DNA from: Phycisphaerae bacterium
GTDB taxonomy: Bacteria > Planctomycetota > Phycisphaerae > UBA1845
Length of the DNA: 36,440 nucleotides
Direction of reading: 5' to 3'
Assembly (NCBI GenBank): GCA_029260025.1
Contig: JAJDDZ010000246.1
Coordinates: forward strand, 1 to 36,440
The position numbers were made by a program, and so were the translations under genes. The notes below the pieces were generated by a model. The model was given only the letters and a program-made list of their open reading frames with translations. It was not told the DNA's origin and made no database searches. Position 1 is the first letter of the stretch. Each line of letters begins with the position of its first letter. Below are positions 9,470 through 20,877 of the stretch, piece by piece.

Positions 9470-10090
9470 ATGATTTACGATATTTCTCCAACGATTAGCG
9501 ATCGAACGAAGGTTTGGCCTGGCGATACGCCGGTTTCGCGGGAGGTTTTGTGCGATATGGGCCTTGGTGACAATCTGACGCTTTCTACGCTGCGCTCGAC
9601 TGTTCATCTTGGTGCGCATGCGGATGCGCCTAGTCATTATGGCGCGGAGGCGGCGTCTATCGAAGCGGTTGATCTTGCGCGATATGTTGGGGATTGCCGG
9701 GTCGTTCATGTTGATGTTGGTCGCGGAGAGCGGGTGTCGGTTGAGATGGTTGGTTCGGTTAAGGATGTGTCGCGAGTTTTGATCGCGACAGGGACTTATC
9801 CTGACTCTGCTGTTTTCAATGAAGATTTTGCGGCGCTTGCCCCCGAGCTTGTGGATCACCTGCATGGGTGCGGTGTTGAGCTTATTGGAATTGATACGCC
9901 AAGTGTTGATTTGTTTTCTTCTACTAAGCTGCCGGCGCACAGGCGTTTTCTTGCGAACGGGATGGGGATTTTGGAAGGGTTGGTGCTTGGAGATGTTGCT
10001 GACGGAGTTTATGAACTAATCGCGCTGCCGCTGAAGCTGGCGGGGTTTGATGCTAGTCCGGTTCGGGCGGTACTTCGGACAATGGACTAA
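9470..10090 (+). CDS. kynB: Kynurenine formamidase (cyclase family)
   Basis: The enzyme hydrolyses N-formyl-kynurenine to kynurenine and formate in tryptophan breakdown. The 206-residue protein has the metal-binding signature of the cyclase family, H46LGAH50AD52APSH56, where the usual GTH is GAH. It also has the C-terminal YELIALPLKLAGFDASPVRAVL, which is typical of KynB rather than of other cyclases. The middle stretch GIDTPSVDLFSSTKLPAHRRFL also fits. The gene is divergent from the EamA transporter. No tryptophan dioxygenase or kynureninase is in the window, so use in a full pathway is inference. Confidence 0.88.
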   Translation: MIYDISPTISDRTKVWPGDTPVSREVLCDMGLGDNLTLSTLRSTVHLGAHADAPSHYGAEAASIEAVDLARYVGDCRVVHVDVGRGERVSVEMVGSVKDVSRVLIATGTYPDSAVFNEDFAALAPELVDHLHGCGVELIGIDTPSVDLFSSTKLPAHRRFLANGMGILEGLVLGDVADGVYELIALPLKLAGFDASPVRAVLRTMD

Positions 10091-10114: not shown

Positions 10115-13100
10115 TTACTTGCCGGCGAACCATCGTTTTTTGGTTGGGACTTCGACGACTGGGTCGCTCGTGATGTTGATCATTTCCAAGAGCTCGGCGC
10201 CTGATTTTCCGGGATGGAGTCGCTGAAGGGTTCGGAACCTTGTAGCGGTTTCGTCGTCCATGGCGAGCGACGGGAGAGGTTCCTTTTCCTTTGGCTTTTG
10301 AGGTGTCTTTTTCTTCTTGCCGTTGGACTTGATCATATCCTTTGTAAACTTTAGCGGGGCGGTGATGGCGGACTTTGGGTGTGGGTTGGTCTTTGTTGTG
10401 TTGGAAGACTTCTTCATTTTTTTGATCGGTTTTTCTTGGGCTTCTTCGGCGACCTCTGCGCGGGCTGCTGCGAGGGCTTGCTTCATTGCTAGGTCCTGAT
10501 CGACTATCTCTTCGTTGTCTTTGGCTGAGATCGCCTCTTCTGCGAGTTGATCGAAGTGAACTTCTTTTGCTACTGGCGCCGGTGGCGTTCTTGCCTCGCT
10601 CTTTCTTGGCGTTACCGGGAGCGCGAAAGATTGCCAGAAGTCTGCTACTGCCGCGTGACTTTGGCGACCGGTTTCTTTCAGGCGGGCGGCGGACGCCGAC
10701 ACTAATCGCGATTCTTCGATTTCTTCGGCTTGCTGGAGAAGGTACAGTTCTTTTTCTTCGAGCTCTGCGGCCCTTGTCTTTAATGCGACCTGCTCGGCGT
10801 CGTTTGTTCCGGCGGTTGATGCTAGTTTTTGCTCTAGGATTTCGATGCGTTGGGTGTATTCTCGGCGAAGAGCGTTGGTGGTTTCCCCTGCGTCTTGTTG
10901 CACTTTTTCTAGCTGTGCGGTTGAGGTTCGTTGTGCTTCTGCGAACCGTACTTGGGCTTGTTCGGTTACCTCTGCGATCGCGTTTTGAACTGTCGAGTTT
11001 TCCTGCTCTGCCCTCTGGCGGATTTGAACTGCTCCCTCTTGGCGAACTGTGACTAGCTCCGCTCTTGCATCCTCGGCTGACCTTAGCGCTTGTTGCAACT
11101 GGTTTTGGCTGTGGTCTGTTTCTGCTTTCGATTTTTGGAGGGCGTCTTTTAGCTCGTCGTGACCACCGAACGCGTCTTCTAGACTCTTTCGCATTTCGAG
11201 GATTTCTTTTTGGGCTGCGAGGAGCGCGTTTTCTCGTTCTTTGTTCAGGGCGTCAGCAAGCTCCTGTGCTTTATCCAGTGTTCTCTTGTTTGACTCTGCT
11301 CCTGAAAGGGATTTTTCGAGACTCTTGCGCTGTTGGGATAGATCGTGCTCTCGCTGCGTGATTTCCTTGACTTGAATCTTGAGTTTTGCTGCATGCTGCT
11401 CGAGGGCGGTCTCAGATTTTGTTGCGTTTGCCAGGCGATCTGCCAGTTGCCTGGATTTGACAGCAATTTGGTTTTCTAAGTCTTGCATTGCGCGTTGGCG
11501 CTCTGACGATTCCTTTTCGAATGCACTTCGATCGGCGGCGACTTGGGCTCGAACCGATTCGAACTTTGCTTGCTCTTCCTTGAACTTCGCTTCGGTTTCT
11601 TCGACGATACGGGCTCTTTTTTGGGAACTGACCTCGGTATCGCGTGTCTGTTTTTCTCGATTGTCTAGATCGGCGAGTTTCCTTGTGAGATCCTGGTCTC
11701 GACGTGTTATCTGGTTTTGAAGGTCCTTGGCTGCGACTCCTTGCGCTTCGAGGGCTTGGGATTGCGTTTTGACCTGTTCTTGCAGTCGGGTTAGAGCGGC
11801 TTCTCGTTTTTCGCACTCGGCGAGTCGGGCGGTGAGAGCTTTTTGAGTCTCGGCGACCTGGGATTGCTTGGCGGACTGCTCTTTGACTCGGAGTTCGTGC
11901 TCGACTCTAGATTCGCTGAGCTCTTGGCGCTTGGCCTCGAGTTCGGCGCGGTCGTTTTGAAGCGTTTGTTGAGCTTGTTTGAATCTTGCGTTCTGGTCTT
12001 GGGCGCTCGCGTCTACTTGTGCGGCTAGTTCGGTGGAGCGTTTTTGGAACTCTGTTTCTTGCTTTCGGAGACGTGTCTGGTTTTCTTGTTGCTCTTTTGA
12101 CTTTGCTTCGAGGGCCGCTCTGGCGGCGGCGAACTGCTCTTGGGCTTGATCTAAATCCCGCTCGCGAGTCGCGAGTTTCTCTTCTTGGGCATGCCATTCT
12201 CTTGAAAGGGTCTCTTGCTTTTTGGCAGTTGCGGAGCGCTCGGCGTCGAGGGTCTGGCTCTTGTTTCTTACTTCTTCTGTTTGGGATTCGATTTGCTTGC
12301 GCGCGGCGGTCAATTCGTTTTCAAGGGCCTCGAGTTGCTGCTCGCGTTGGGTGAGGGTTCCTCCTCTTTCGGACAAGGTGGCGTTATTTTTTTCTGCTGT
12401 GTCTGCTTGTACTTTTAGCTCGGAGAACCGCTCTTGCAGTTCTGATTCCATCTGGTGAAGGCGCGTTTCGTTCGTCTCTTGCTCTTTGGCTTTTGTTACG
12501 AGCATCGCCTTGGCGGCGGCGAGCTCTTTCTCTGTTCTGGCGAGGGCGTCCTCTCGGTTCCGAATCGCCTCCTGGTGATCCTTATTTTCTACTAAAAGGG
12601 ATGCTCGCGCTTTCTCGACGGCTGATCGGTCAGTCTCTATTGTGCTGCGAATCTTGCCAATTTCTTTTCGCTGGGCGTCTATCTGCTTTTGGTCGTTTGC
12701 CAGCTCTTTCTGAAATGTTCTTAGTTTCTTTTCTCGGTCGGCGACATCTGAATGGAGTGTCGCTGCTTCTTGCTTAGCTTTTTGTGCTGCCTGGGCCTGG
12801 GATTCGATTTTTTGATTTAGTTTTTCTAGTTCGGTTTGTTTGTGTTTTACTTCTTTTTGGCTTGCGGCGATTTCTGCCTGTGATGCTTCTATCAAGTCGC
12901 GGGTCTGGGAGAGCTGTGACTCTTGTGCTCTTGCGCTGGCGGATTGTTTTTCAATTCGGTCGCTGTCGATTTGGAGTTGGCGGCTGGCCTCTTGGATTTT
13001 GTCGTTTTGTTCTTTGAGTTTTGCGGCCTGCTTCTCTAACTGCTGCTCCCTGGCGGCCCACTGTTTTTCGTGTTCCTCACACTGCGCGTTGATGCGATCA

Positions 13101-13219
13101 TTGACATTACTGTTCCAAGTCGCGAACTGTTGCTGGAAAGTTGTGACGCCTACGGCGAAGGCCTCGATAGCTGCTTCTACGTCGGCGATGACGTCGTTTT
13201 GTTTGTTTGCTCGACCCAT
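10115..13219 (-). CDS. Very long coiled-coil protein with a conserved-looking C-terminal tail
   Basis: This is a soluble protein of 1034 residues; no family was recognised. A short N-terminal segment (about 1-40, DVEAAIEAFAVGVTTFQQQFATWN) precedes an almost unbroken coiled coil to about residue 850, rich in E, Q, K, A and R with heptad leucines. Residues about 233-270 and 363-400 align (AAAxAxLxxKxKEQxxNxTRL), showing an internal duplication with a 130-residue period. A basic linker (KKMKKSS...GKKKKTPQKPK, about 930-980) leads to a compact 54-residue tail (981-1034) ending KKRWFAGK. There is no signal peptide or membrane helix. It is divergent from a second coiled-coil gene and probably works with it, as a scaffold or tether. 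Confidence 0.85.
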   Translation of the reverse strand: MGRANKQNDVIADVEAAIEAFAVGVTTFQQQFATWNSNVNDRINAQCEEHEKQWAAREQQLEKQAAKLKEQNDKIQEASRQLQIDSDRIEKQSASARAQESQLSQTRDLIEASQAEIAASQKEVKHKQTELEKLNQKIESQAQAAQKAKQEAATLHSDVADREKKLRTFQKELANDQKQIDAQRKEIGKIRSTIETDRSAVEKARASLLVENKDHQEAIRNREDALARTEKELAAAKAMLVTKAKEQETNETRLHQMESELQERFSELKVQADTAEKNNATLSERGGTLTQREQQLEALENELTAARKQIESQTEEVRNKSQTLDAERSATAKKQETLSREWHAQEEKLATRERDLDQAQEQFAAARAALEAKSKEQQENQTRLRKQETEFQKRSTELAAQVDASAQDQNARFKQAQQTLQNDRAELEAKRQELSESRVEHELRVKEQSAKQSQVAETQKALTARLAECEKREAALTRLQEQVKTQSQALEAQGVAAKDLQNQITRRDQDLTRKLADLDNREKQTRDTEVSSQKRARIVEETEAKFKEEQAKFESVRAQVAADRSAFEKESSERQRAMQDLENQIAVKSRQLADRLANATKSETALEQHAAKLKIQVKEITQREHDLSQQRKSLEKSLSGAESNKRTLDKAQELADALNKERENALLAAQKEILEMRKSLEDAFGGHDELKDALQKSKAETDHSQNQLQQALRSAEDARAELVTVRQEGAVQIRQRAEQENSTVQNAIAEVTEQAQVRFAEAQRTSTAQLEKVQQDAGETTNALRREYTQRIEILEQKLASTAGTNDAEQVALKTRAAELEEKELYLLQQAEEIEESRLVSASAARLKETGRQSHAAVADFWQSFALPVTPRKSEARTPPAPVAKEVHFDQLAEEAISAKDNEEIVDQDLAMKQALAAARAEVAEEAQEKPIKKMKKSSNTTKTNPHPKSAITAPLKFTKDMIKSNGKKKKTPQKPKEKEPLPSLAMDDETATRFRTLQRLHPGKSGAELLEMINITSDPVVEVPTKKRWFAGK

Positions 13220-13658
13220 TTTGTGCTTTCCCGATAGCTTGCAGGGGTTTTCGCGGTTACTGCCATGCGCTGATCCCCAGCTTATGGCGAACTATTTTCC
13301 TCTCGCTGCGAGTACATGCTATGCGTGCCTGGTGCTCTTGCGGGAGGTTAACTCAGGTCAAGTCTACGTTTTGTGATGTTTGGGTGCGGCGCGGAATGGT
13401 GCTTGTAATAGGACGTTTTGGTGGAATTTTCGTGATTGTTGAGTCCAGAAAAAGGGTCGGCGAGTAAACGTCCTAGATAACTTCGTCTGGCGGTGGTTGG
13501 GGTGGGGATTGGGTCTGGGTCTGTGCGATCTGGTGTGGGGACTTTGGCTGAGATCGTATCGTACTCTTGACTCGCCGAGATATGGGAATACGAGGTCGTG
13601 TTATGTGCAGGTGGCGCGCGTGCTTTGTTGTGTCCTGGTTAGGACCGCCCTTGCGTAG
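13220..13658. promoter_or_regulatory. Divergent intergenic region between the two coiled-coil genes
   Basis: These 439 bp separate two divergent coiled-coil genes and must hold both promoters. Short ORFs here lack credible start sites or protein character. No clear inverted repeat or -35/-10 pair was identified by eye. A GGGAAAG sequence before 13219 on the minus strand is the probable ribosome binding site of the long coiled-coil gene. Any shared regulator of the cluster would be expected to bind here. Confidence 0.4.
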
Positions 13659-14528
13659 ATGACGGGGTCTATTTTGGGTATGCCAAATACAATCGACATC
13701 GGATCTGCTGGATTTGATGCGGGGTCTTTGCAGGATCTCGCCTCGAATACTGTCGCGGCGTTGCGGTCCGCGCAAGAGCAACTTCGTGGTGAGGCTGAGA
13801 TACTTCATTCTGAGCGGGATCAGCTCGCTTTGGAGCGGGACCGTATCGTCGGGATTGAGAAGTCTGTTCTGGCGAAATCTCAAGAATGCGACGTGCGAGC
13901 CGGCGAAGTGAGCGACATGGAGTCTCGCATCGCGCGGCGACAGCGTGAGATGGAAGAACTTGCCTCGCGGATTGAAGAAGACGAGAGGCGTATCGCTGCT
14001 CGGCACGTCGAGCTAGATGATCGGAAGAGAGAATTGGCAAATACTTCGTCGCAGACTCGGAGCGAGACGGAGGCGCTTTGTGAAGCGCAGAAGGTTTTTG
14101 CCGCTGACCGGGAAGCACTCTTGGCCGACCAGAAGCAACTTGCCCCGATGCGCGACGCGATTGAAAATGATCGAGCGTCTTTGGCGGCGTTCAAGTCTGA
14201 GTTGGACTCTAAAGCTAGCGCGCTTTATTCGAAGGAAGCGGAGCTCGCGAGCGCTCGCGATGCCCTCTCTTCGGTGCAGAGTCAGCTCGCCCGCGACAGC
14301 GAGGAGCTATCCGAGAAACGCAACGTCTTGTTGAAAGCGGTCGGAGATAGCGCGAGGGGGCCTTCGGTTGAGAAACCGGTTGTTGTTGCGAGCCCGGCTG
14401 AGGTGGTTGAAGAAGTAGACCCGGTTGAAGCGTTACCCGATCCGGGTCGTGCTCCTAAGCCTGCGTCCTCGGCTGACCAGTTTAAGAAGCTGCGTCGCGA
14501 CGCGAAGCGAAAATCATTGAGTTCCTAA
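13659..14528 (+). CDS. Coiled-coil protein with a Pro/Val-rich linker and a basic tail
   Basis: This 289-residue protein belongs to no family I recognise. Residues about 25-230 form a coiled coil (EEDERRIAARHVELDDRKREL and similar). A Pro/Val/Glu-rich linker follows (about 235-265), then a short basic tail (QFKKLRRDAKRKSLSS). The build mirrors the divergent 1034-residue protein: short head, coiled coil, linker, basic end. No signal peptide is present. The start is uncertain: ATG at 13659 or ATG at 13680, neither with a strong ribosome binding site. It is first in a four-gene run with the FGE-fold protein (55 bp gap), the GTPase and the GAP1-like protein. Confidence 0.78.
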   Translation: MTGSILGMPNTIDIGSAGFDAGSLQDLASNTVAALRSAQEQLRGEAEILHSERDQLALERDRIVGIEKSVLAKSQECDVRAGEVSDMESRIARRQREMEELASRIEEDERRIAARHVELDDRKRELANTSSQTRSETEALCEAQKVFAADREALLADQKQLAPMRDAIENDRASLAAFKSELDSKASALYSKEAELASARDALSSVQSQLARDSEELSEKRNVLLKAVGDSARGPSVEKPVVVASPAEVVEEVDPVEALPDPGRAPKPASSADQFKKLRRDAKRKSLSS

Positions 14529-14582
14529 AGGTACGGGCTACGGTAGATCAACGACAGAAATCGTTTGATATGGAGACGGTCA

Positions 14583-15593
14583 ATGGCCATCGGACTGTTT
14601 AGTAAAATGATGTCTCGCAAGGGACGAAAACGTAGTAACCAAGTTTCTCCTATTGAGCACAAAGTTGCGACATTTAAGCCTTCATCCTACGAGAGTCTGG
14701 ATGCTGACCCGTTGAAGCAACTCTTTCAACAGAAGCGACACGCTGTGTTGCTGCGTGAGGAATCGAACGCACCGGAGGGCGGCGATTACGATGCTGTCTT
14801 GTCGGCTGCGAAAGAAGAGTTAGAAAAGAGCATGGCGATCGTACCTGCTGGGTCTTCGGCGATTCCTCAGAGCTTGTTTGACGAGGGAGATGATGTCGAG
14901 ATTCCGGTAGATCCTTTTTTGCTCGATGTTCTTGCGGTCACAAACGGTCGGTACCAGCAGTTTGTTGATGGGGGAGGCTATGACGCTCTTGAGTACTGGC
15001 CTGAGGAGATATGGCCTCACTTGATCGAGCTGAAGGATCTTACTGGACAACCTGGTCCTCGATTCTGGCGGCAAGGGCGTTGCGATGAGCGTCTTTGGGA
15101 TCATCCGGTTGTCGGGATTAGCTGGTACGAGTCGCAGGCTTTTGCACTTTGGATCGGTCAACGACTTCCGAGCGAAGCGGAATGGCAGATGGCTGCTTCT
15201 TGGCATATCAACAGCTCAACGGACATCATGCGCCGGTTTCCGTGGGGCGATGCGATGAACTCTGAAAAGTGCAACATCTGGACGTCGCGGAAGAACGGGA
15301 CTGTGAAAGTTGACGAGTATCCTTCAGGGGTTGCTCCGAATCATGTTTTTCAGTTGGTAGGGAATGTTTGGGAATGGACGGACTCAGAGTACGTGATTTC
15401 CGATGGGACTGGGAACCCAGTTGTTGGCGAGATGCCTATGCACGCGGTTCGCGGGGGTGCGTTTGACACTTACTTTGAATCTCAAGCGACGGCGCACTTT
15501 CGCACTGGGCAGATCGCGCTGGCGAGATCGCATAATACGGGTTTTCGATGTGCCATGGATCTTGGCGAGGCAACGTGGATCAACGGCGGTTAG
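14583..15593 (+). CDS. FGE/SUMF1-fold protein without the catalytic cysteines
   Basis: The protein has 336 residues. After an N-terminal basic and probably disordered part (1-80), residues about 84-326 carry the formylglycine-generating-enzyme (sulfatase-modifying factor) fold: VTNGRYQQFV, HPVVGISWYESQAFALWIGQRLPSEAEW, FPWGD, VGNVWEWTDS, RGGAF (290-294) and NTGFRC (319-323). True formylglycine generators bind copper with two cysteines just after RGGS. Here that region (RGGAFDTYFESQATAHFRTG) has none, so it should not make formylglycine. A binding or other role, as in many FGE-fold proteins of conflict and signalling systems, is more likely. ATG at 14583 after GGAGACGG was preferred to the in-frame TTG at 14565. 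Confidence 0.85.
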   Translation: MAIGLFSKMMSRKGRKRSNQVSPIEHKVATFKPSSYESLDADPLKQLFQQKRHAVLLREESNAPEGGDYDAVLSAAKEELEKSMAIVPAGSSAIPQSLFDEGDDVEIPVDPFLLDVLAVTNGRYQQFVDGGGYDALEYWPEEIWPHLIELKDLTGQPGPRFWRQGRCDERLWDHPVVGISWYESQAFALWIGQRLPSEAEWQMAASWHINSSTDIMRRFPWGDAMNSEKCNIWTSRKNGTVKVDEYPSGVAPNHVFQLVGNVWEWTDSEYVISDGTGNPVVGEMPMHAVRGGAFDTYFESQATAHFRTGQIALARSHNTGFRCAMDLGEATWINGG

Positions 15594-15613
15594 AACCGCA
15601 AGGAGTACCAACG

Positions 15614-16492
15614 GTGGCAACGGCAACATATGACGGAAGCTCGACGATGCCCTGTCTGATCTGCGAGACGAAAAACCCCGCGGATGGGATATTGTGTGAT
15701 GAATGCGGCGCCCCAATGGCGCTGATTCAGGAGGCGGTGACTCGCGACCGCGACCCGTGCATTGTCACGGTTCTCGGCGAGAGTAACGTCGGGAAGACGG
15801 TGTATTTGGGGATGCTGTTGGACATGCTGTCCAAGCGTGCGGAGGACTATGAGGCGATCCCGAAAGGTGCGTACTCTGTCAACGTTCAGCATAACGTGAT
15901 TAGCTATTTGTCGGGTCGACAGTTTCCACCGAAGACTGCGGTGGAGGTCGATGATTGGCATTGGGCGTACTACCAAGTGATGCATAAGCGGCACGGGTCA
16001 AACATTTACGACCTGGTGATGCCTGACATGGCAGGTGAGGCGATCGCTACTGAGGTTGCGAATCCGCAGACGTTCAGGGTGATCCGATCGCTTCTCGAGA
16101 AGAGTGCGGGTGCGATTCTTCTTGTCGACGGAGCGCTGGCGGCGACTGGTTCTCCGCAGCCTGACTTTTTTGCGCTGAAGTTGATGAGCTATCTTGACGG
16201 TGTCGTCTCGGTGAAAAAAGGGGAAAAGATTAAGACTCCTGTCGCGGTGGTCTTGTCTAAGGGGGATCACTGCCCGGAATGCTTTGACGATCCTCACGGT
16301 TTCGCACGTACGAACCTCAACCGTCTTTGGAACATCTGCGAGGCTCGCTTCGAGAACTATGAGTTCTTCGCGACGAGCGTTGTGGGGGCCCTTGGGTTTG
16401 GTACGGATGGTGAAAACGTTGTTCAATATCCTCTTCATGTTGCGCCGCGCGGGATTCTTGAACCGTTTGAGTGGGTGCTATCGACGCTGTAG
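15614..16492 (+). CDS. Zinc-ribbon P-loop GTPase (TRAFAC / DO-GTPase2-like)
   Basis: This 292-residue protein is probably a GTP-driven switch. An N-terminal zinc ribbon (C14/C17 and C28/C31) is followed by a P-loop domain. Walker A is G55ESNVGKT62. The switch-II/Walker-B motif is DMAGE (138-142), like the DxxG of GTPases. A base-specificity motif, SKGD (215-218), resembles [NT]KxD. From memory the closest families are the 'double-GTPase' proteins found with GAP1-type partners in bacterial conflict-like operons; this could not be checked. GTG at 15614 sits 8 nt after AGGAG and is preferred to the upstream ATG at 15548 inside the previous gene. The next gene begins 10 bp after its stop. Confidence 0.72.
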   Translation: MATATYDGSSTMPCLICETKNPADGILCDECGAPMALIQEAVTRDRDPCIVTVLGESNVGKTVYLGMLLDMLSKRAEDYEAIPKGAYSVNVQHNVISYLSGRQFPPKTAVEVDDWHWAYYQVMHKRHGSNIYDLVMPDMAGEAIATEVANPQTFRVIRSLLEKSAGAILLVDGALAATGSPQPDFFALKLMSYLDGVVSVKKGEKIKTPVAVVLSKGDHCPECFDDPHGFARTNLNRLWNICEARFENYEFFATSVVGALGFGTDGENVVQYPLHVAPRGILEPFEWVLSTL

Positions 16493-16502
16493 GTGATCGG
16501 CG

Positions 16503-17930
16503 ATGCAAGAAAAGTTGCTGAGATGTCATCAGGCGATCCACACGTCTATTCGAACGCCTATGGGCGAAGGATATCGCATTGTCGCTGCGTCCAAGGGGCT
16601 GCAACCGCATGACAAGCAGGTGATCACTCGGAATTGCCCGTCGGTCGACTCGATCTGCCTTCCGCCGGAGGGCAGCGATAGCGAGCCACTTGGGATATCG
16701 TTCTACACGCTTCCCACGAAACGACTTTGCCTTGCGCTCTCTTGCTTTGCTGGCGAAGAGCATACCGGTCGGGGCGGGCGGCGCGTTTACACGATCAATC
16801 TAGTCTTCGACGCCGCCGACTTCGCGGATTGCGGGTATAACCCTTTTCGGATCGTTCGGGCGATGGTCGATGCGGGTCTTTGCGAACCGGAATTGCAACC
16901 GGACAAATCACTTCCTACGATCGACCTTTGCGTTGTCGACGATGACCATCTTCTCGAAGGTGCGGGTCTTCCGGCTATTCTCCCAGAGCCTTTTCGCCCC
17001 TTTGTCCTTGAGCAGCTTCTCTTGGGCAAAGGCGTTGTGGTGGATGTTGGTGATGAATGGACCGAGTGCGCGGAGGCTACGCTTCTTGGGGTACCTGGTC
17101 CTCTGCGGAGTGAATTGTCGTTTTCTGCGGGACTTAATTTTTCGACGAGCAGGAAGCACACGCTTCAATTCCTTAGCGACGACAAGGGAAAAGCGAAGTC
17201 AAGATGCTCTGTGATCGGGGCCACTTTTCTTCCGTCAAGGGGTACGCCGCCAAAGGCGCCGTCTAGCTCGATATGGACTTCGATGGCTGCACGCCATTGG
17301 CGCGATGGTCGGCTTGCTGAGTTGTCTCGGCGTACGTCTCGCGCTTACGTGGATACTGGCGAGGACGCTCGCGAACGTCTTGGTTCGATTTTTGCCACTC
17401 TTGATGATGCTCCTTCAATGGACGTCGTGCGACTTGCTACGCTTGCGAGCGAGATCGTGTTCCGTCCATCGGACGGCGCGGAGAAGCAAATTCACGATGA
17501 ATTCGCGGAGTCCATGGGGAAGATCATCCTCTTGCGACTTGGGGTCTCGACTCCGGAAGAACTAGGGTCGCTATTCACACGACTTGTCGGGACTTGGCGC
17601 CGAGGTTGCGATGGTACAAAGTTTGCCGGTCCAATCCTCGACGGGTTGCTTCGCAATTACATGCGCGTGAATCCGCTGGTCGCAGCGCAGATGGCGCTGG
17701 ATGTTGTTTCTGAAGTTCCCGCTGAGGTCGATCGCTCTGGACATGATGCCCTGATCGCTGCGGTATTGACGCGTTTGTCGACTTGGGTGAAGCATGCCGA
17801 CGATCCGGCGCTTTCGCAAGTTCCTGATGTTGTCGCTCGTTGGGAATCTGTTCGTCCGCACTCGCCCGAATTGACGGGGGTTAGCGAGCATTGCGCTAAG
17901 GTTCTTGCAAAGATGACGGCGCGAGCATGA
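16503..17930 (+). CDS. GTPase-associated protein 1 (GAP1)-like protein
   Basis: This 475-residue cytosolic protein is encoded directly behind the zinc-ribbon GTPase. Its N-terminus (QAIHTSIRTPMGEGYRIVAAS, 10-30; then GISFYTLPTKRLCLALS and TGRGGRRVYTINLVF, 89-103) resembles the GAP1-N domain that I recall from GTPase-associated protein 1 families, which occur next to bacterial double-GTPases. The rest (about 200-475) is alpha-helical without known motifs. In that family the partner is thought to regulate or sense the GTPase; enzymatic GAP activity is not established. The adjacent genes agree with this reading. The family name is given from memory and needs a profile search. Confidence 0.62.
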   Translation: MQEKLLRCHQAIHTSIRTPMGEGYRIVAASKGLQPHDKQVITRNCPSVDSICLPPEGSDSEPLGISFYTLPTKRLCLALSCFAGEEHTGRGGRRVYTINLVFDAADFADCGYNPFRIVRAMVDAGLCEPELQPDKSLPTIDLCVVDDDHLLEGAGLPAILPEPFRPFVLEQLLLGKGVVVDVGDEWTECAEATLLGVPGPLRSELSFSAGLNFSTSRKHTLQFLSDDKGKAKSRCSVIGATFLPSRGTPPKAPSSSIWTSMAARHWRDGRLAELSRRTSRAYVDTGEDARERLGSIFATLDDAPSMDVVRLATLASEIVFRPSDGAEKQIHDEFAESMGKIILLRLGVSTPEELGSLFTRLVGTWRRGCDGTKFAGPILDGLLRNYMRVNPLVAAQMALDVVSEVPAEVDRSGHDALIAAVLTRLSTWVKHADDPALSQVPDVVARWESVRPHSPELTGVSEHCAKVLAKMTARA

Positions 17931-19251: not shown

Positions 19252-20877
19252 ATGCGGCTCATCCTAACCGATATGCGTACGATCACCGACCCCGAGCCTC
19301 GACGCGCGCGGTTCGAGTATCGGAACCAACCGGTGAAGCTTGGTTCTCATTCGGAGAGCGGGATTCCGCTTCCGGATACGCGGATCCCTGAGCATCACGC
19401 GACGCTTGAGCCGGTTGGTCATGACTGGTTTTTTCAGCCAACGACTCGCGAAGACGAGTTGACTAAGGTTAACAATGAGCCAGTTACCGAGCGGACGCAG
19501 ATCAAAGACGGCGACATAATTTCGATCACTTACTTCGAGCTGAAAGTTGAGATCGAGGCTGAGGTCGCGGTGGACTTACCCATCCCTGGGAAGGCTGGCG
19601 AAATTGCCCTCATCAAGAAATATCCGATTCCGCCGCGCAGTCTGGTTCGCAAACCGGACGAAGAAATTACGATCTCCGCGGCAAGGCAGAAACTTCTCGG
19701 TGAGCTTGTCTCTTCCCTGCGGGACCGCGTTGATCTCGCTGGGCTCTTGGAGGGACTGGCAGATTTTATTGGTTCACATTTTGAGGCACGAATGGTTTGG
19801 ATTGGTACTCGCCGGAAGCGGAGTGATGCGCTTGATTTCGTTGAGTCGCGTATTGACGGTGAGCATCGTGTGGCAGCTCCTCCGAAGTTCGAAACTTACG
19901 AATACCGATGCCTTTCGCGTGACCAGTTCATCAATATCAAAGGGACGGGCGACGGGTTGACCCAGTCAGTCCTAGCGATTCCGCTGTATGGTCCTCGTTT
20001 CCCAATCGGGATGGTTTATGTAGATACGGCGCGACGTGCGCGTGTTCTTGATGGTGCGGACCTGGATTTTCTGACTGTTTTGGCGAACGTGGTTACACCG
20101 CTCTTCGTCACCGCGTTGGAAGGACCTGTCGGTCTTGCCGCCGCGGCTGCCAGTGAGGGGAACGGAAATACGATTGAGCAGATTCGTGTTGCCATTGATC
20201 CGGTTGCGCTTCCTGAGTCAGATGATTTTGAGGTGGCAGCCCATGCCCATCTTGGGATGACGAATCATGGGGACGTTTTTGACTCAACGCGGATGCCCAA
20301 TGGTCTGTTCGTGATGTTCGCTGGTCATGTTGAGACGGACGAGACGCATCTTGCCGCTGCGTTGGCGGAGATCAAGGGGGCGTTTCGCGTCAGCGTGCTG
20401 CATCAGCACCCACCTACAGCGATGCTGAAGTCGCTCAACTGGTTGCTGTCTTCTGGGGAGACTGAGTGTTTACTTCACGCGGCGATCGCGCTTGTTAATC
20501 CGAAGAATGGTGTGATTGAGATTGCGACGTCTGGCGAAATTGGGGCGGTTGCATTTACTTCGAAGGGGATCGGTAGCAAGCTGACCTCGAAGGACGCGCC
20601 GCCAGTGGGGAACGGAGAAGCTATCGAATACGCCTCGAAAAAAGTGAAGACCGAGCCAGGAACGACGATTGCGCTTTATACGCTGGGTGCTCCTGAGGCG
20701 ACTGACGAATTCGGGACCGAGCTTGGGGAAAACAAGTTTCTTAAGGCTCTGCGGAATGTTGCTTCGAAACCGGCAATGACACAAATTGACGAGGTTTTAG
20801 CGGACCTCGGGTCGTTCTTAGATAATGACAGCACTGAGAGCGACGTTACGGTGTTGCTGGGGCATCGGCCATTGTGA
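19252..20877 (+). CDS. FHA-GAF-PP2C/SpoIIE-like regulatory protein
   Basis: The protein has 541 residues. It begins with an FHA-like domain (about 5-100), followed by a GAF domain (about 145-290) and a C-terminal PP2C/SpoIIE-type phosphatase-like domain (about 310-540). Key residues are changed: the FHA phosphothreonine Arg and Ser are absent (KLGSHSESGI and IPEHHA instead of GR and SRxH). In the phosphatase the first metal motif is NHGDVFD (338-344), but the second, usually DVxGxG, reads AGHVET (357-362). The protein therefore looks like a sensor or scaffold, possibly catalytically dead. It is separated from the kinase/FHA genes by other genes but probably belongs to the same signalling style. 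Confidence 0.75.
   Translation: MRLILTDMRTITDPEPRRARFEYRNQPVKLGSHSESGIPLPDTRIPEHHATLEPVGHDWFFQPTTREDELTKVNNEPVTERTQIKDGDIISITYFELKVEIEAEVAVDLPIPGKAGEIALIKKYPIPPRSLVRKPDEEITISAARQKLLGELVSSLRDRVDLAGLLEGLADFIGSHFEARMVWIGTRRKRSDALDFVESRIDGEHRVAAPPKFETYEYRCLSRDQFINIKGTGDGLTQSVLAIPLYGPRFPIGMVYVDTARRARVLDGADLDFLTVLANVVTPLFVTALEGPVGLAAAAASEGNGNTIEQIRVAIDPVALPESDDFEVAAHAHLGMTNHGDVFDSTRMPNGLFVMFAGHVETDETHLAAALAEIKGAFRVSVLHQHPPTAMLKSLNWLLSSGETECLLHAAIALVNPKNGVIEIATSGEIGAVAFTSKGIGSKLTSKDAPPVGNGEAIEYASKKVKTEPGTTIALYTLGAPEATDEFGTELGENKFLKALRNVASKPAMTQIDEVLADLGSFLDNDSTESDVTVLLGHRPL

Follow-up and report, generated by a model that had tools for sequence, protein, structure and literature searches.

DO-GTPase/GAP1-N2 systems were defined by Kaur, Burroughs, Iyer and Aravind in 2020, who predicted conflict functions for them (PMC7159879). 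According to that paper, a protein with fibronectin type III (FNIII) repeats is characteristic of the GAP1-N2 systems, an effector and/or transmembrane component is variable, the DO-GTPases usually but not obligatorily carry two N-terminal zinc ribbons, and partners with a formylglycine-generating enzyme (FGE) domain are mentioned in planctomycetes. Here we describe a related block of five genes in contig JAJDDZ010000246.1 of a Phycisphaerae bacterium (assembly GCA_029260025.1), a stretch of 36,440 nucleotides referred to below as the window. The block encodes two coiled-coil proteins (CC1 and CC2), an FGE-fold protein, a DO-GTPase and a GAP1-N2 protein. A prediction made earlier from the window (the original prediction) had proposed these genes as one unit in which the GTPase could control a coiled-coil scaffold, and this is still the best reading; it also placed such GTPase/GAP1 pairs in conflict or signalling operons.

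Compared with the systems described there (PMC7159879), the block shares the GTPase superfamily, the Walker-B glutamate, an N-terminal zinc ribbon, a GAP1-N2 gene directly downstream of the GTPase gene and an FGE-fold partner. It differs in having a short GAP1 (~340-520 residues) without a transmembrane segment, one zinc ribbon, no FNIII, effector or transmembrane protein, constant gene content, two coiled-coil proteins with conserved ends and a vertical, single-copy distribution. The nearest thing to a described effector is the FGE-fold protein, which lacks the FGE catalytic pair. The original prediction called the system a candidate uncharacterised one; the core pair and its FGE partner had in fact been partly described. 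The conserved-end coiled coils are absent from the text of the paper, although a coiled-coil neighbour may appear in the figures. The longin/DENN-like GAP1 fold predicted here, with its invariant R90, is likewise absent from the text. Canonical long GAP1-N2 systems were also found, with a patchy occurrence, in the same class (loci L182-L189); they had a GTPase of ~430 residues, a GAP1 of 760-870 residues (often with a transmembrane segment) and a large partner of 970-1030 residues without a Pfam match or named family.

A conserved five-gene unit

We clustered all neighbouring genes in 81 loci. The GTPase was present in 81, the FGE-fold protein in 80 and GAP1 in 79, followed by the CC2 and CC1 clusters, whereas the next, unrelated families each occurred in no more than 9 loci and no sixth recurrent family was found. 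Since only five families recur and other neighbours are rare, the block has been kept together while its surroundings were reshuffled. FGE, GTPase and GAP1 genes occurred together in ~80 Phycisphaerae and Pirellulales loci, again with other neighbours shuffled. The proposal of a single unit is therefore borne out by the neighbourhood comparison: the genes are clearly conserved together. The family assignments of GTPase and GAP1 also held up in Pfam, where the GTPase matched DO-GTPase1 (4e-11) and DO-GTPase2 (1e-9), both above cut-off, and GAP1 matched GAP1-N2 (Table 1), clearly not unrelated families.

A GTPase profile built from 29 sequences was run on 298 genomes of the class and gave 49 sharply bimodal matches. 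Matches of ~500 bits were found in the window's order and in one further family, with one distant match besides, and nothing beyond these reached 1e-20. Within the window's family, 28 genomes were sampled and 27 had the GTPase. In another family, probably Pirellulaceae judging by names, it was carried by 46 of 119 genomes, with CC2, FGE and GAP1 next to it in nearly all loci read. The FGE subtype was found in 48 of the 49 GTPase-carrying genomes, the exception being the one with the distant GTPase, and in no other of the 298 (hypergeometric 6e-55, a figure that ignores relatedness); 47 of the 48 genomes with both proteins also had GAP1-N2. A scan of named genomes detected 80 loci, nearly all in Planctomycetota and most labelled Phycisphaerae, which reached Pirellulales at 42-45% identity, and the GAP1 query found 30 of 40 relatives. 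One 97%-complete genome of the window's family (G098) lacked GTPase, FGE and GAP1 altogether, probably because the entire unit was lost.

The system lies on the chromosome as a single copy and has been passed on vertically. There is one copy in the window's genome, GTPase and FGE distances correlate across 99 loci (r 0.92), and Pirellulales-type loci form their own clade in a tree built from GTPase and FGE of 89 loci. The block was not found in plasmid, phage or viral-contig collections, and a mobile origin was rejected in the absence of any such relative. Identity to the nearest relative was 89% for the GTPase and 85% for the FGE-fold protein, compared to 94% and 82% for flanking metabolic genes, and was lower in GAP1 (61%) and the coiled coils (44% and 56%).

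Multiple alignment of 29 GTPases showed that G55, N58-T62, T108, D138, G141, E142, K216 and D218 are invariant, as are the Walker-B motif PDxAGE and the four cysteines of the zinc ribbon (CxxC...CxxC; C14, C17, C28 and C31). The P-loop, DMAGE and SKGD motifs and the ribbon noted in the original prediction are thus all present, with key residues invariant or nearly so. The structural model of the GTPase was of moderate quality (predicted local distance difference test, pLDDT, 77.7) and matched translation-factor-class (TRAFAC-type) and other GTPases generically; MglA was only among these generic fold matches. No roadblock protein or MglA/Arf-like GTPase, as in the MglA/MglB polarity module, was detected by sequence, Pfam giving DO-GTPase and GAP1-N2 only.

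The profile of the FGE-fold protein matched EgtB, SUMF2, FGE and PorK/GldK in the PDB. In 96 relatives bearing the nearly invariant RGGAFDTYFxxQAT motif, the catalytic cysteine pair CxxxxC was not found once, and alignment to a solved FGE agreed, consistent with the loss that had been predicted. By its defining residues, the protein is therefore not a formylglycine-generating enzyme. The fold is shared with FGE/SUMF1, EgtB, SUMF2 and PorK/GldK, of which SUMF2 and PorK/GldK also do without FGE catalysis; the block's protein differs from them in its signature (RGGAFDTYFxxQATxxFRTG), in having no transmembrane segment and in its almost constant position next to CC2 and the GTPase. By analogy with SUMF2 and PorK/GldK, it may have a binding or structural role. 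An apparent CC2-FGE fusion in locus L100 was rejected as an out-of-frame extension.

Both coiled-coil proteins showed 3.5-residue hydrophobic (heptad) periodicity when compared with shuffled sequences (z 8.4 for CC1 and 4.8 for CC2), as had been predicted; the same test did not find it in FGE, GTPase or GAP1. Only generic coiled-coil Pfam families matched CC1 and CC2, below cut-off. CC1 occurs in two forms, long and divergent (808-1632 residues, median 1267, 29 complete cases) or, in sister lineages, short (157-545 residues, median 217) and co-directional, always just 5' of CC2 and mostly overlapping it or within 40 bp. A profile of the last 75 residues of long CC1 detected the short gene in ~25 sister-lineage loci (E 3e-4 to 8e-15), while shuffled open reading frames (ORFs) gave nothing better than E 0.4. 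Among 4003 ORFs, the only other significant matches were three further long divergent CC1s. By this sequence evidence, the two forms are homologous at their ends. On the tree of 89 loci, the long divergent form arose once; the change between forms occurred a single time, compared to a mean of 24.7 changes for shuffled states (none of 500 shuffles was as low as one); together with the end homology, this indicates that CC1 travels with the system.

The CC1 rod is free to vary in length while its ends are conserved. The basic-aromatic tail, with W and then F or W close to the end, was present in 49 of 55 cases, and CC2 ends in the basic consensus (F)(R/Q)KL(R/C)RDA(K/R)R, whose strict pattern was found in 59 of 72 loci. 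Judging from their sequences, these conserved ends may be docking sites. In a small clade (L084 and L096-L099), the CC1 tail was lost and the preceding helical module kept. Two divergent loci (L076:3716-5467 and L174:9916-11469) had an FHA-domain protein with a coiled coil where CC1 is expected, a hint that phospho-dependent docking might replace or accompany the CC1 ends.

The GAP1-N2 protein

All 29 relatives of the GAP1 protein matched PF20013, and the gene was directly downstream of the GTPase gene in 79 loci. Its AlphaFold2 model was of high quality (pLDDT 92.9, predicted template modelling score 0.88). Residues 3-123 were modelled as strand-strand-helix-strand-strand-strand-helix-helix, and this b-b-a-b-b-b-a-a order is that of longin domains. 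The N domain is thus predicted to be longin-like, followed in the model by an alpha/beta (GAP1-M/DENN-like) middle domain and a helical-repeat C-terminal half. The best PDB fold matches were TagF (9t0n, in first place, E 6e-4), chains of the folliculin-FNIP2 complex (9e-4 and 3e-3) and GATOR1 (0.1); the last two are GTPase-activating complexes of the longin type. By sequence, no longin, roadblock or DENN family of Pfam matched GAP1, and a search of the PDB with the GAP1 profile gave weak helical-repeat matches only.

The five invariant residues (Table 1) are identical in 99 of 99 GAP1 sequences. Among them, R90 is placed by the model in the loop that joins strands 4 and 5, and it is aligned to the arginine of a D-Y-T-G-R motif in canonical GAP1-N2 proteins. 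In SMCR8, an arginine finger in the longin domain (Arg147), shown by structure, acts on ARF1 (PMC8213707). For longin domains, an origin from GTPase-interacting domains of prokaryotes has been proposed (PMC3521125). Neither longin nor DENN is mentioned in the text of the paper that named GAP1 (PMC7159879). GAP1 would share the longin strand/helix order with the longin/DENN regulators (SMCR8-C9orf72, folliculin-FNIP and NPRL2-NPRL3) and roadblock MglB, and an invariant arginine in a loop with SMCR8. Unlike these proteins, it consists of one polypeptide chain that has a helical repeat at its C-terminal end, and its partner is a DO-GTPase rather than Arf, Rag or MglA. GAP1 is predicted to be a literal GTPase-activating protein (GAP) of its partner. 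The fold match of the GAP1 model suggests that GAP1-N2 may have its fold, and perhaps its origin, in common with TagF; TagF, a type VI secretion repressor, works through the protein Fha (PMC5995506), whereas no type VI secretion genes were seen in the five-gene block.

Proposed role and alternative explanations

We tentatively favour a GTP-gated cytoplasmic scaffold with a constitutive role in cell organisation. The zinc-ribbon DO-GTPase would be the switch and GAP1 its cognate regulator, with R90 from the beta4-beta5 loop most likely stimulating GTP hydrolysis, as SMCR8 does on ARF1. The FGE-fold protein may be a rigid, non-catalytic hub to which the ends of peptides dock. CC1 and CC2 would form a fibrous scaffold of variable rod length, with the CC2 basic tail and the CC1 C-terminal module as docking points. 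GTP loading would lead to assembly or recruitment of the scaffold, and GAP1 to its release. Such a system would serve the organisation of the cell rather than form an effector-bearing defence island.

A constitutive role is favoured, by roughly two to one, over each single alternative because the system is near-universal, single-copy and vertical in the family, because the block is unlike canonical systems in its GTPase, GAP1 and large partner, because GTPase and FGE show roughly the same conservation as flanking metabolic genes, and because the plasmid, phage and viral collections did not contain the block. Several points weigh against the scaffold. The described relatives of the DO-GTPase/GAP1 pair are predicted conflict systems, and the scaffold in its full form is not universal, as CC1 was not found in loci of Pirellulales. 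With E values of 6e-4 to 0.1 and TM-scores of 0.16-0.40, the fold matches of GAP1 are weak, and the longin/DENN-like label rests on topology and several concordant weak matches; GAP1 could act as a GAP, a guanine nucleotide exchange factor or an effector-binding protein. Physical contacts among the five proteins are also something that we infer.

The alternative that survives best, although unlikely, is an envelope-stress or nutrient signalling switch, in which the FGE-fold domain senses a ligand or peptide, GAP1 reads it and the coiled coils merely cluster the sensor. Phage-shock operons are reported to include a DO-GTPase, with a predicted role in membrane stress (PMC11237479), FGE folds (C-type-lectin-like) are often ligand-binding, eukaryotic longin GAPs regulate nutrient signalling, and the FHA-domain protein of L076 and L174 points to phospho-signalling. 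However, none of the five proteins has a transmembrane segment, and no linked kinase, phosphatase or regulator was conserved in the 81-locus clustering.

A conflict system (anti-phage or abortive-infection) is somewhat less probable again. Here, GAP1 and FGE would sense an invader, the GTPase would set the threshold and coiled-coil assembly would be lethal or arresting. DO-GTPase and GAP1-N2 define predicted conflict systems, for which planctomycete FGE-domain partners are mentioned (PMC7159879), and the lower identities given above point to faster evolution of GAP1 and the coiled coils compared with GTPase and FGE. However, the GTPase switch and FGE evolve slowly, no effector, transmembrane or FNIII protein was found, PADLOC, searched for known defence families, gave only generic coiled-coil matches to CC1 and CC2, the block was not found on plasmids or phages, and the canonical long GAP1 systems in the same class are patchy and have a different architecture. 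The original prediction had left both a membrane-organising and a defence role open; the vertical, single-copy and near-universal distribution in the family favours housekeeping over defence, and contact with a membrane may be part of that role.

A more specific form of the scaffold seems improbable at present, namely that a GTPase cycle in planctomycetes, with a longin-fold GAP running it, would gate rod-like coiled-coil tethers of up to ~200 nm at an internal or cytoplasmic membrane, as a bacterial counterpart of the eukaryotic GTPase/longin-DENN GAP/tether logic. Eukaryotic golgins and coiled-coil tethers are controlled by small GTPases. The likeness, in long rods whose ends are conserved and in the presence of a GTPase with a regulator of longin type, is an analogy that serves only as a lead. 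That GTPase, GAP1 and FGE form the unit and CC1 is a chance divergent neighbour is very improbable: CC1 is on the opposite strand across the 439-bp intergenic region and is missing from Pirellulales loci, but its C-terminal module recurs immediately upstream of CC2 in the sister lineages and almost nowhere else among the ORFs searched.

In the literature compared, the DO-GTPase/GAP1 pair is a predicted conflict or stress system and GAP1 has no mechanism. Here, the pair belongs to a conserved, apparently housekeeping unit of defined five-part composition, and GAP1 is given a testable mechanism (longin-like, Arg90). Planctomycetes are known for unusual internal membranes and division, and a coiled-coil scaffold that is under GTPase control and present across the lineage is a concrete candidate for a share in this cell biology. 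If the longin assignment is true, it would add a bacterial GTPase-longin pairing beside MglA-MglB and bear on the origin of eukaryotic longin GAPs.

Gene arrangement and neighbouring genes

All five ORFs are located as originally predicted (Table 1). Gaps in the plus-strand run are 54, 20 and 10 bp, the first having been given as 55.

Table 1. Features of the five-gene block (window positions)
Feature	Position	Strand	Basis
CC1 (1034 aa)	10115-13219	-	ORF; length-variable coiled-coil protein; N-terminal helix conserved
CC1 C-terminal ~65 aa, conserved, ending in basic-aromatic tail KKRWFAGK	within 10115-13219	-	
Intergenic region CC1/CC2, 439 bp, divergent starts, presumed promoter region	13220-13658	.	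coordinates
CC2 (289 aa)	13659-14528	+	ORF; coiled coil with basic C-terminal motif FKKLRRDAKRK
FGE-fold (SUMF1-like) pseudo-enzyme, 336 aa	14583-15593	+	Pfam FGE-sulfatase (PF03781) 5e-35; signature RGGAFDTYFxxQAT
DO-GTPase, 292 aa, one N-terminal zinc ribbon	15614-16492	+	GESNVGKT, switch-I T108, DMAGE, SKGD
GAP1-N2 protein, 475 aa	16503-17930	+	Pfam GAP1-N2 (PF20013) 2e-12; invariant E86, R90, T97, R202, R217

None of the five proteins had a clear transmembrane segment (top 19-residue hydropathy 1.48), and no FNIII match of Pfam was found in them or in the flanking genes tested. NCBIfam gave generic coiled-coil and FGE/EgtB matches only, all below cut-off. In the CC1/CC2 intergenic region, no sigma-70-like site or Rfam match was detected, and promoter and terminator scans yielded nothing specific. 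A simple ORF caller set the gene boundaries in draft loci, which makes the start codons, and a few copies with frameshifts, approximate.

Two genes downstream of GAP1, the window encodes a protein (19252-20877) that combines an FHA domain with a SpoIIE-type phosphatase domain and is not conserved with the block. On the other side, a kynurenine-formamidase-like cyclase (9470-10090) flanks the block, and kynurenine-monooxygenase-like and amidohydrolase-like genes occur near it in a distant clade (L084:1253-5048), possibly by chance; kynurenine-pathway neighbours were rejected as members of the block, being too rarely recurrent in the 81-locus clustering. A flagellar link through fliM in several Pirellulaceae-type loci was also set aside, fliM being treated as context because it is convergent and unseen in other lineages. 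In these genomes (L175-L180, for example L175:9870-10901), CC2-FGE-GTPase-GAP1 sits at a stable place on the chromosome, next to convergent fliM and proA.

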